DNA of 64,000 nt, taken from assembly GCA_963457665.1 (NCBI GenBank), contig OY735202.1, positions 50,475,781 through 50,539,780 of the forward strand, in the 5' to 3' direction. Shown here one piece after another: positions 45,101 to 51,100 of the stretch (the first letter of the stretch is position 1; each line of letters starts with the position of its first letter). The notes beneath the pieces are model-generated. The model saw nothing but the letters and a program-made list of their open reading frames with translations, had not been told where the DNA came from and did not search any database. The DNA is from Thysanoteuthis rhombus (taxonomy: Eukaryota > Mollusca > Cephalopoda > Oegopsida > Thysanoteuthidae). The position numbers and the translations under genes are program-made.

Positions 45101-48100
45101 TATCAATATCAATATATTGATATGAACATATGAATGATCTCACTGGAAAATCAACGCCTGAAAAATCTAAAATTCTGTCAAAAATCAACACATCATTCGA
45201 TTTTGATACAATTTTCAATACTTATTTATTAAAGGAGAAAGTTTTGAAAAAATAATTTTTCATTCAAAATATTGGAAAAAAAGAATTTTTTACATATAAT
45301 TCTTATCATTTTGATGATTCATCTTCATATACATTGCTGTTTTCTTTGATTTTTAAATATTTAGCAGATGAATCTTTTGATATATTGATTATGTTTATCT
45401 TTTTTAGAAAAACTCTCTAGAATTGCTCTAGCTGGAAGTCTTACTTTTGGAATTTAAAGAAACAGGGAAATAAGATAGAAAAATTTTTTTGTCTAACTTT
45501 TGACTGCGGATTCAGCCTATTGCTTGATACTGACAGGCTAAAATATCATACCTCCAACTTTATTTCAGAGAAAAAATATTCAAAACAATTTTTCTATACT
45601 TTTCATATCTGAAATGATTAATGAAAAACAAATCAAAAGGGTAAGTAATAACCTGACTCAAAAATTTTGGTAAGTTGACATCATTTATGGCTTTTAATAG
45701 CAGCACAGATTCATGCAGATCACCATGTTTCAATTTCAGATTCCCGGCTGCAGTCAAGACAGACTTGACTGCACGCATTCCGTAATCATAGTGATGTTGT
45801 GAAGAAAGTTGTTCTGAACATAGACGGTAAGTGGCAACAATTTTCCCTGCAAGACTGGAAGTAAAGTAAAGAAGAAAGAGTTGAATTTGTTTTCATCTTT
45901 TGTAAATTGTAAACATATTAAAAGGATGTACAGCCAAAAACAGAAATACTTTTACATTGAAGCAAAAAAATGACTTGAGTGTCTGAGAATTTATGTAGAA
46001 TTTGAATAAGAGAAATTACTGAATGAAAAAGGGCTAGTTGCACACAGGGGCAGGTTGAATCGCTTGCTTCAATTTTTGTTTCCACCACTTGATGGTGCCA
46101 CTATTAGCTTTATATTGAGTCAAAAAATGTCTGCCATTTTTCTACTGAGTTTGAGCCACATGCACATCCAATGCATGAAAAACACTTTCTCTCATTTTTA
46201 CAAGTGAGTGCCTATTTCATACTGTATTGTGCAGTTGATGATAGTGTAATCTATGTTTATGAAAAGTGGCAATAAACAGGATATATACTATATTTCAAGC
46301 AAGTTCTGCAGGAACTTTTCTTGGAATAGAATGCAAAGGAAACCAGAGTTTGGGGCTAGTTGTAACATTGTGAATTGGGCTACTTGGCACTAGGTTATTG
46401 TATACAATTGAGGCTGAGGAAAAACAAAAAGCCTGCAAAATAACGAAACAAACCTCAAAAAGTCATTGGTGTCATCATTCTTTTCTTGTTATCTTTTTTC
46501 CGACTTCCACTTTCCATCTTATCAAAATGCACCATTGAAGCCTACTCACACATGAATGCACTTGATCTACTAAGTGGTCATTATATTCATAAAATCTTAC
46601 TTTTTTACTCAAATTCATTTTTTTGATTGGTTTAAAATTTTACTACTAGCAAGAGAACTAATAGTTAGGGTGCAATTCCATTCCCATATGCATTTGCTGT
46701 CTAAGCAATTTTTCTATTGATTCTGTTATTTAGTATATAGAGGTATGTAAAAAACATGTTTGGCATTTTGGGGGTGCTCCATTTACCATATTTGAGCATC
46801 AATTGAAATTTGTTAGCCAAAAATAATATGACAACACCAAACATAATCATATTATATATCATCGGAAAGCTATTGAAGAGCTGAGTATTTTTTATCGAAG
46901 GACCTATAGTCTACAGTCAACAGGAATTGAGTTATATACATTTATATATATATATAATTCATATGCATATTTCTTCTGTTAGCCAACAAAGCACAAAATC
47001 ATTATAAACCAGGTAGGCGGGGAGCCAGATGGGCCTACAGTGCACCCCCAGTTTCCTCCACCATATATTTTTCTGATAACTACATGTCTATAGTTTATGG
47101 TTTGTGTTACCTGAGCATATGTTTAAAGTTTCAAAAAATACATTTTTTCACAAATTTTGCTTTGTCAAGGTTCACGCTGGAGCACAAAAAAATGTCAAAA
47201 AAAGACAAAAACTTGAAAAATGTAAAAATACCTAGCTTCACATTTTCTGACCTAAACTTTCATACTAAACAGATATATCTTGTCAAGATACCATGTTAAA
47301 AAGTTTATGAACTCCCCTTTCAAAGGATATCTATACGTATACATCTCCTTCAAGAATTAAATCAATTGTCTATAGAATTTGGACAATCAGTCACACGCAT
47401 ACTTGAAATCCCCTTGAAAAATGCCAATTACCAAGGTTCACATTATGCTCAACAGATACAAATTTACAAGATACACTGTTGGAAAGCTCACTTCTTTTCT
47501 AAAAATATATGAATGTATATAAAACCATCATGAAGTAAATCCACAATCAATAGATTTTCGACTATGAAATACTTGAAATTTCCTTGATAAATTTTAAGTA
47601 CCCAGATTCACAATTTTGTCTGTAACTTTTCATGTCTAACAGATACAAACTGACTGATACACTGTTTCAAAGCGGATACAATTTTCTTCCCAACAATATA
47701 TATATATATATATATATATATATATATATATATATATATATATATATAGATAATAAGATGTGAATTCGCTACACAAATTAGTTCATGTTTCTACCTTCTC
47801 TGGGCCTCATCAGGCGAATGATTGTCTGTGTTTTTGAATTCTAGTTTGGGGAATTTAGTGAGAATCTTGTGAGTGTTGCTGTAAGGAGTTTTATTGTTTT
47901 AGTAGTGTGAATATTTTTGTTGGTGGTTGTAAGTTACTTGTCAAAGGATGTGAGCTAGATGTAGGAGTTATCTCTGAAAGGATGCTTAATTGTTTTCTGA
48001 GGGATGTTTTTATCTTGACCTTGGTATTTGGCATTGGGTTTATTGCCTATGTTGGTATCCTATATGGCTCTAGTGGATTGTACTATTCTTAATTTATTTA

Positions 48101-51100
48101 GGCATGTTTGAGAGTAGATAATAGTGATTGGAAGTTTATCGAGATGATGGATATGGGAATAGACTGTCTACATTACCTTTAATTTACTCTCCAGACAATC
48201 ATTTGCCTGATGAGGCCTAGGGGGGGTCAAAACATGAACTAGTTTGTGTAGAAAATCCACATCTATTATTTATTTCCAGCTCTACTCTAGAACAACTTTC
48301 GAAGTATATCTTAATTTATCGAGCACTCTATGAAATAAATCCATCACACATCAGATGTTGCTTAATATTATGCTATATTGCTAACTTGATCTGTACAATA
48401 TGTATTATATATATATATATATATATATATATATATATATATATATGTGTGTATGTATGTATGTATAGATCTCCATCAATGATTAAATCCACAATGATGC
48501 CCAAATATGGTAAACAGGGTCAGAAAATGCCAAACATTTTTAACATACTTCAATTCACGAACAGAATCAATAGAAAAAAATTGCTTTATCATGCACACAA
48601 GAGGTAAATATTGGGGAATCGTGCTGTCACTTTAACTTACACAATCAGGTTGTACCAACTATCTTCACTATTAAGGTAGGTTTGTATACTTTTTTCCTAA
48701 TGATTTGAATGATGATATGATAAACTTGACATATGTTTCAATTTAAACGATCCATCCAAAGGGTGTCTCTCTCTTTTCCATAGTAATTTTTGGCTATATT
48801 TTCGTTTCAATTAGGTAATTTCAAAAGAAATTACAGCTATCTAAATGAAAAAAAAAGAATGGAATAGTTTTTTAGATATAATTCATATGATTTATAGTTT
48901 CCATTCCTGCAACCCTTCTTATTCACAGTTTCTTTTTTAGTGTTCCCTTTATCTGCATTTTCCCTCTCAGTGGTTTCCCTCTTATCAGTGTTTACATTCC
49001 AGACGTCCCCTCTTATCTGCAGTTTTCCTTTCAGTGGTATGTGGACACATCATTAGAATTCCGTTCTTTCTATTGCACAATGAAATCTCACCTTCTGGCA
49101 TCAACAAAGCCCATAGAATAGAGAACAATTTCACCAATAAGGGCATAATCTGGAACCATCATAGCAACAGTTCGGAACAGAACCTGAGAAATCAGAAATA
49201 AAAATATTCCATGTTCAAAAACCAAGAACTATTCTTATTGCCTATTTATAACTTTTTTCATCATACATTGATAATAATTACATACAAGAGTCAGTTTAAG
49301 CAACAATACAGTCAGTCATTCAAGATTTCTTATAGAGCAAATAAACTATTCCATTTCTTTCTGCACTATATGCTTTATATAGTAATTCATTTATAAAAAA
49401 AAATGGTTGAGCCATTGAACTTGCAAATATCCTCATACCATAGGTATTTGTTATGCTGATAATCACATAAAGTCTACAACTATAATTTTTTGTAACTGAT
49501 TTCAAGCTTTTTGAGTTTTTATCCTGAGTGGTTCATTAAAAAAATCTGATGATTGAATACTTTTTAAATGTTTACATAAAGCTTTGAAATATACAAATTT
49601 ATAGAAATATTATTAAATAACACAATGATGAAGAGCAGAGTGATACAGAAAACTTTCTTGTATGTTATTGAAACAGATTTTAAAATGACAAATAAAAGCA
49701 TTTGATTATGACAAACTTTATTCAAAAAGATCACTTTTGATTATATTGTGACAGCTGTCATATTTGTATGCATTTTTTCAAAGATGTTTGTAAAAATGGT
49801 GTATTTTTGCTTATTGATTCAAATATTTAGATGGAAGAAAATAAGCAATGCAGTATGCATACAGGCCACACCAATGGCGCTAGTAGGCTAAAAATGGAAA
49901 TATTTACTCCTTATCATATTTCAAAATGTAGCCTGATAAACAAGCTGCTGTAATGGTTTATATGTTTCAATACTCTGACATATACAGAGTATACACCTTG
50001 TAGAGTGATAGCATCAATGACCTAGGGAATTTCCACTCGTTTGAAGTCGATAGAGAGTGGCATCTCATATTCTACTGCTTTCTCTTTTAGTTGATCTATC
50101 GAGTGGAGATGATTCAATACATCCTCTTGATAGTCACCTATACAGCTGAAATATGGAATCTAATCAAGAGACTGACCCTCAAACTAAGAACCATGCAACG
50201 TGCACATGGAGAAACCATACTTAATATCACACAGAGAGATCACAAGACAGCACAGTATATTAAGGAAAAAACAGGAGTCCGAGACATCAAATGGCAATGG
50301 GCTAGTCATGTTGCAAGAATGGCAGACAACTGCTGGACATCATATCTTACAACAAGGAACCCCAAAAATCAGGCTGGCTGAATATAAGGTGGTAAGACAA
50401 ATCGGACAGGTTCAGAAAGTATTGGCTCCGTGACATCCATGATACGGAGGTCTGGCAAGTCCTACGGAAGGTCTATGTACAACAATAGATGATAAAAGAC
50501 CAATGATGATGGTGGTGGTGGTGGTGGTGGTGATGATGATGATGATTAGAAAAAACATTTGTCTTAGTATGTGTCTGGTAGCAGTCACACTCATTTTTAG
50601 AAAATTCAGACTTTTTAGTGATCAACAAAAAGCAAGAGAAATTGATCATACCTTTTCCAATTTTTTAATTTATCACCCTAACATGGTATCAAGCCAGAAG
50701 ATGTTAGTCATGTGAGGGTTTCTATTGAGTCACTAACATATAAGCATATCAAATCAAGAAATCTTTACAAGGTAAATCCCCTTGACTATAGATAGAAGAA
50801 ACAAGTACTTATAGCGAAGCTTCAAGTTATAAAAAATTATAGAACAGATCAACAAAACTTACCTTAAGATTATCGGGTAACTCCTGTCGGCCAGCATAGC
50901 CTGGGTTCATGGTAATAAACATGGTACAGGTGGGATCAAGATTTAATTCTGTGCCTTCAAATAGGAATTTTTCTTTTTGATTGGAAATGGCAATCTGAAT
51001 GCACTGAATCTGTTGGGCAACTACAGAGAGCACTTCTAATTCAATACGATTGAACTCATCAAAGCAGGCCCAAGCACCAGCTTGAGCAAGACCTTTAAAG

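Follow-up and report, generated by a model that had tools for sequence, protein, structure and literature searches.

Paired inverted hammerhead motifs in a squid dynein intron as the probable remains of a truncated Penelope-like insertion

We analyzed a short inverted-repeat unit that carries a hammerhead ribozyme motif in one arm and the remnant of another in the opposite arm, and that lies in a dynein heavy-chain intron of the squid Thysanoteuthis rhombus, within a stretch of 64,000 nucleotides (GCA_963457665.1, contig OY735202.1, positions 50,475,781 to 50,539,780, forward strand; hereafter, the window). A preliminary description had presented this unit as a 0.5-kb foldback element in its own right. 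The results reported here point elsewhere: the unit very probably stems from a single old insertion, now truncated, of a Penelope-like retrotransposon with many copies, in which two pieces of the 3' region are joined head to head. The copies of this family are laid out head to head, with common outer ends and varying junctions, and inverted ends that point outward have been described as typical of Penelope. The copy in the window is dead and belongs to a known kind of element, whereas the other copies of the family may reveal how such elements insert.

A multi-copy Penelope-like family

The two arms of the window unit (47756-47828 and 48192-48264) are inverted copies of 73 nucleotides (nt) with 85% complementarity, in agreement with the preliminary description. 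The right boundary, previously placed at 48273, had to be moved: the unit extends roughly 140 nt further, up to another (TA)n run that starts at 48406, so that the whole spans approximately 47749-48405 and is bounded by two (TA)n runs. The window contains 9 TA runs of at least 16 bases, and these two are the only ones between 36.8 and 59.7 kb. The left arm, which abuts the (AT)n run without a tail, continues through 360 nt of 3' untranslated region (UTR), and the pieces align to one longer copy of the family at 1100-1559 (minus) and 1479-1701 (plus).

The first look at the genome yielded 4944 candidate places for the element, 2607 for the left arm and 2456 for the tail, of which 40 in each case were scored, so that the true copy number is not fixed by these figures. 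In the longer copies, reading frames are found upstream of the 3' UTR, in the sense of the hammerhead, for example, the 188-amino-acid frame of loci L017 and L040. The one protein match of this upstream frame, P0001 (49% identity over 91%), passes the Pfam cut-off for GIY-YIG (24.8 bits versus 22.6; 2.6e-5), whereas Pfam and PDB sequence searches with the genome's own fragments of the Penelope-like element (PLE) gave nothing useful. A piece of L041 that adjoins reverse transcriptase (RT)-like motifs matched all 150 places scored among 1154 candidates. At L078, the parts follow each other in direct order, namely, an arm with 3' UTR, the tail, an RT-like frame, the endonuclease region with 3' UTR, and an arm, all with broken frames.

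The arm is followed by a tail of some 140 nt, which leads into (TA)n at the majority of 17 loci inspected. Among 23 ungapped tail stretches, the frame of a conserved ATG is open in 19, with 4 stops in total compared to 39 and 35 in the other two frames, and the tail is likely to be the start of the PLE reading frame. No excess of third-position changes was detected in the tail (43, 33 and 25 changes at the three codon positions), which is what dead copies would show. The family combines pseudo-long terminal repeats (pLTRs) in both inverted and direct orientation with a tail on one of them, a hammerhead in the pLTR and, through a homologue, a GIY-YIG endonuclease at the C-terminal end of the frame. 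For comparison, the typical Penelope structure includes inverted pLTRs with an optional tail on one, head-to-head being the most frequent order (PMC3846280).

The longer copies also bear on a different origin of the unit, namely, a metazoan retrozyme, for which the type I layout with a real helix III would speak, as many invertebrate retrozymes have it (PMC7229834). Because 47600-48400 contains no direct repeats, this candidate was rejected; with the longer copies leading into a coding frame, we give it virtually no credence.

Layout and junctions of the copies

We mapped 36 loci, including that of the window, on one real copy as the coordinate frame. An inverted piece is found at the 5' truncation point in 21 of the 36 loci and at the 3' end in none, whereas a direct piece at either end occurs only once. 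The inverted piece holds the whole hammerhead in 6 of these 36 loci and is cut within it in 5. Over 65 loci, we counted 34 head-to-head rows versus 0 tail-to-tail rows; 3 of the 34 repeat a locus already counted, and two loci contribute two rows apiece. The breakpoint pairs differ among the 21 loci with an inverted piece. At two loci with very short copies, L105 and L111, the arms meet in near-perfect palindromes within the hammerhead.

These observations bear directly on the possibility of a non-autonomous foldback element that moves as a unit and uses the hammerhead arms as its functional ends. The arms are inverted, as such an element would have them, and L051 and L072 resemble the window copy, with nearly the same breakpoints and with 75% and 79% identity, respectively, across the junction; their joints, however, differ from that of the window. 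None of the other 39 scored places (40 of 4944 candidates were scored) matches across the window's junction, the inverted piece is cut inside the hammerhead in 5 of the 36 loci, and the tail is present on one arm and missing from the other. Because the junctions vary, we rejected this explanation and consider it very improbable.

Distribution of insertion ends

A sample anchored on the tail alone, and thus independent of the arm in its selection, was assembled from the best 40 of the 2456 tail places; 37 were newly retrieved, two that were already among the loci examined were omitted, and the window was added. With L102, one of the retrieved copies, serving as the frame, 37 copies were counted, position 1 being the first base of stem I and position 51 the base after the cleavage site. 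An adjacent inverted piece is present in at least 24 of the 37 copies, a lower bound because the inverted pieces of the window (360 nt away), L091 and L092 were left out. The outer ends of the inverted, tail-less pieces align to positions 71-74 in 21 of the 24 cases; the frame reads TATATAT there and the pieces merge into (TA)n, so that the exact base of the outer end is not fixable.

The inner ends lie within the hammerhead (positions 1-56) in 27 of the 37 tailed pieces and in 19 of the 24 inverted ones, with the reservation that breakpoints from local alignment may be off by a few bases. Compared to an even spread over the neighbouring stretch, and with the copies taken as independent, the binomial p of this clustering is 2e-11 for the tailed (27/32) and 2e-7 for the inverted pieces (19/23). 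The same tendency is seen in the set selected by similarity to the window, where the shorter pieces start at 1475-1500 of the coordinate frame of that set in 15 of 34 cases, compared to 2 of 35 single copies. Clustering of this kind is not mentioned in the available parts of the PLE literature that we compared, although no search was aimed at earlier reports.

There is no clear peak of ends at the cleavage site itself: only 2 of the 37 tailed and 2 of the 24 inverted pieces end within 2 nt of it. The ends of L082, L097 and L106 align to 53-54 and may, by eye, lie at the cleavage site; for L097, microhomology in stem I is an alternative account. Given the lack of a clear peak, cleaved RNA as the template was rejected. 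Under a tentative interpretation, which we regard as possible although rather doubtful, insertion in this family would end at the hammerhead: the two reverse transcripts, primed from the two cut target strands at two start sites, would both halt within the 56 nt of the hammerhead or immediately 5' of it, and either the fold or an RNA 5' end located there would set the head-to-head junction. If so, the hammerhead of this PLE, with its full helix III, would bound reverse transcription instead of processing the template, since the cleavage site shows no clear peak of ends.

Status of the hammerhead motif

The left-arm hammerhead was largely recovered as first described. On the minus strand of 47764-47819, a 6-bp stem I (ATTCGC / GCGAAT) encloses the CTGATGA and GAAA core motifs, a 7-bp stem III and the GTA triplet; stem II, in contrast, is weak, with only 3 pairs and a G.A mismatch at its base. 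In the right arm, AAAA replaces GAAA, so that the invariant G is lost, again as described. A hammerhead descriptor, which was composed after the motif had been seen, gave 1 match in the window versus 1 match in 200 simulated 64-kb sequences (first-order Markov).

Covariance models gave no match above threshold for either arm, an outcome that the preliminary description had named as one that would refute it. The Rfam search of the window returned no family at the gathering score, and a search on 701 bases with E up to 10 listed no hammerhead model. When each arm was searched on 91 bases, Hammerhead_1 (RF00163) aligned to the left arm end to end with 12.8 bits (E 1.6; threshold 34), and no Rfam hammerhead matched the right arm. 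Likewise, L019, a copy near the majority, scores 14.1 bits with Hammerhead_1 against the same threshold; L077, in which the closing pair is normal, matches Hammerhead_3 best (14.1 bits versus 48.5); and whole-locus searches of 18 loci that contain family arms, at E up to 10, detected no hammerhead at these arms. For comparison, two PLE-type hammerheads of the minimal form that are present in the loci also fall below threshold (25.9 bits in L037 and 23.3 bits in L017). These two, at L017:1260-1305 (+) and L037:3036-3079 (+), have the form CTGAAGAG...CGAAACAGCTGT, match Hammerhead_1 and seem to belong to another PLE family. Minimal PLE hammerheads were reportedly described by Cervera and de la Pena in 2014 and by Lunse in 2017.

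Of 42 complete arms (7 partial arms dropped), 27 have an intact core and 40 have G.A as the closing pair of stem II. In a larger set of 95 distinct complete arms, from which 44 partial hits had been removed, 55 retain an intact core and 78 the G.A closing pair, whereas a standard closing pair is found in 9 of the 55 core-intact arms, for example, in L066 and L050 with ...GGGCCGAAAC. The loci L050, L052, L066 and L077 represent a subfamily of the same PLE with the standard stem II closing pair (CGAAAC); in L052, L066 and L077, CTGAAGA replaces CTGATGA. Because homologous arms elsewhere in the genome have the canonical closing pair, the sequences suggest that the motif is a genuine hammerhead, degraded at stem II in the subfamily of the window copy, that presumably was an active ribozyme in the past.

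The stems are kept in most copies of both sets, yet not through paired changes beyond those of shuffles, so that this second check of the preliminary description gave it no support: 677 of 712 cells are paired in the 42 arms, whereas the shuffles average 675 and 218 of 1000 attain the observed value, and 1514 of 1609 are paired in the 95 arms compared to 1513 (380 of 1000), with stem III alone slightly below the shuffles (632 of 660 versus a mean of 634), in a test that has little power on copies so similar. The core sites vary less than the flanks (19/504 versus 57/672 cells, p 0.001; p 0.04 against all other sites), with the relatedness of the copies ignored.

A working self-cleaving hammerhead in the dynein intron would be in keeping with the orientation of the left arm, which is sense to the dynein gene, with its intact core, and with a hammerhead fold only 0.6 kcal/mol above the best fold of that arm (9.0 kcal/mol for the right arm). 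Taken alone, the left arm folds no better than shuffled sequences (z -0.25). For the RNA of 47749-48273, the predicted fold has the two arms base-paired to one another (-127.4 kcal/mol, z -9.6), and because of this pairing, self-cleavage of the window copy is unlikely. Combined with the mismatched base of stem II and no sign of constraint on the window copy, these predictions leave a functional intronic ribozyme with only a very slight probability.

Discussion

A mechanism that could produce this layout is indicated by the work on Poseidon of Anolis carolinensis (PAc), the enzyme of which has a preference for AT-rich DNA, both cuts and extends the two target strands, and initiates reverse transcription at two sites that bound the tail (PMC11167929). 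Under the model that we favor for the squid family, the PLE enzyme would cleave an AT-rich target on both strands, and reverse transcription would be primed separately from each of the two target 3' ends. The cDNA of the right arm would start at the outer end of the tail, whereas that of the left arm would start in the AT-rich stretch just past the hammerhead and so would lack the tail, continuing instead across 360 nt of 3' UTR; finally, the cDNAs would be joined head to head. Each arm would have a hammerhead because the hammerhead adjoins both start sites, and one start at each of the two sites would give the anatomy seen in the window.

The same PLE could also have acquired its inverted arm through self-priming, whereby a single cDNA folds back and copies itself. 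An arm copied from its own cDNA should share the outer end, yet only one arm is tailed; the arms differ by 15%; and the outer ends of the tail-less pieces lie at 71-74 in 21 of 24 cases. We consider this route improbable.

Several observations weigh against the interpretation of the window unit as a PLE insertion formed by two-ended priming. Pfam detects no GIY-YIG match in the genome's own two endonuclease fragments, and what we take to be RT-like motifs, further upstream in L041, L075 and L076, were recognized by eye; Pfam and PDB sequence searches with the L041 pieces gave nothing useful. No intact copy of the family was found. The 36 mapped loci were chosen by similarity to the window, which may favor inverted layouts, and the window copy, L051 and L072 could have a common origin. 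The palindromic joints of L105 and L111 would suit self-priming, which was proposed for the rotifer Penelope from junction palindromes and which the authors of that study favor for inverted pLTRs (PMC3846280).

Among the known systems, the endonuclease-bearing Penelope of Adineta vaga is similar in its 5'-truncated copies, inverted pLTRs mostly head to head, a tail on one of them and AT-rich surroundings (PMC3846280). It differs in that the squid family inserts into (TA)n and has many very short pieces, and the available part of the Adineta vaga text mentions a hammerhead 0 times. The family shares with PAc a hammerhead beside the start of the tail, AT-rich targets and two RT start sites bounding the tail; however, the PAc cleavage site lies inside the frame, whereas the squid family has a helix III of 7-8 bp and a frame that seems to start further on (PMC11167929). 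In the same study, the PAc hammerhead did not cleave unless its protein was present. As in the minimal PLE hammerheads, the motif is of type I, resides in the pLTR and, like most of the cases scored, is below the Rfam threshold; those hammerheads, however, usually lack the helix III that comprises 7-8 pairs here (PMC6155905, PMC7761336). Metazoan non-LTR retrozymes are likewise short repeats whose type I hammerhead has a helix III, but these are direct tandem repeats without a coding relative, in contrast to the inverted pieces of a coding element described here (PMC7229834). The role of hammerheads in PLEs has been called unknown (PMC7761336).

Because many copies of this family are joined head to head and their junctions are readable, start sites, stop sites and any use of cleaved RNA could be read from a single genome. 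The longer hammerhead of this family and the clustering of insertion ends inside it appear to be the points worth pursuing. The case also carries a warning: a short repeat with inverted hammerheads is not necessarily a new element and can be PLE debris.

Features and surroundings of the window unit

The placement in a dynein intron was confirmed: dynein heavy-chain exons lie on the minus strand on either side of the unit, at 50830-51177 (AAA_6, 8.7e-51) and 45563-45892 (AAA_6, 5.2e-23). The parts of the unit are listed in Table 1.

Table 1. Parts of the Penelope-like insertion and its boundaries (window coordinates)
Feature	Positions	Strand
(AT)n run, outer end of the tail-less left arm	47696..47748	
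Left arm, tail-less 3' portion of the terminal region (pLTR) of the PLE	47749..47828	-
Hammerhead with type I layout and intact core, stem II closed by G.A; same sense as the dynein gene	47764..47819	-
PLE 3' untranslated region ('interior'), truncated at 48188	47829..48188	-
Head-to-head junction, 3 bases that the alignment gives to neither piece	48189..48191	
Right arm, PLE terminal region copied in inverted orientation	48192..48264	+
Hammerhead remnant, AAAA where GAAA is expected	48201..48256	+
Tail, confined to the right arm; the PLE reading frame probably begins here, with the ATG lost in the window copy	48265..48405	+
(TA)n run, outer end of the tail	48406..48446	

Dynein heavy-chain exons with matches to AAA_6, the AAA lid and AAA_7 extend across 22930-51177 (-) of the window. 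At 2814-3228 (+), reading frames resemble, by eye, a decayed Tc1/mariner transposase. A 150-amino-acid frame at 53592-54041 (+), with no Pfam match, resembles, again by eye, the end of a reverse transcriptase protein of the long interspersed nuclear element (LINE) type.

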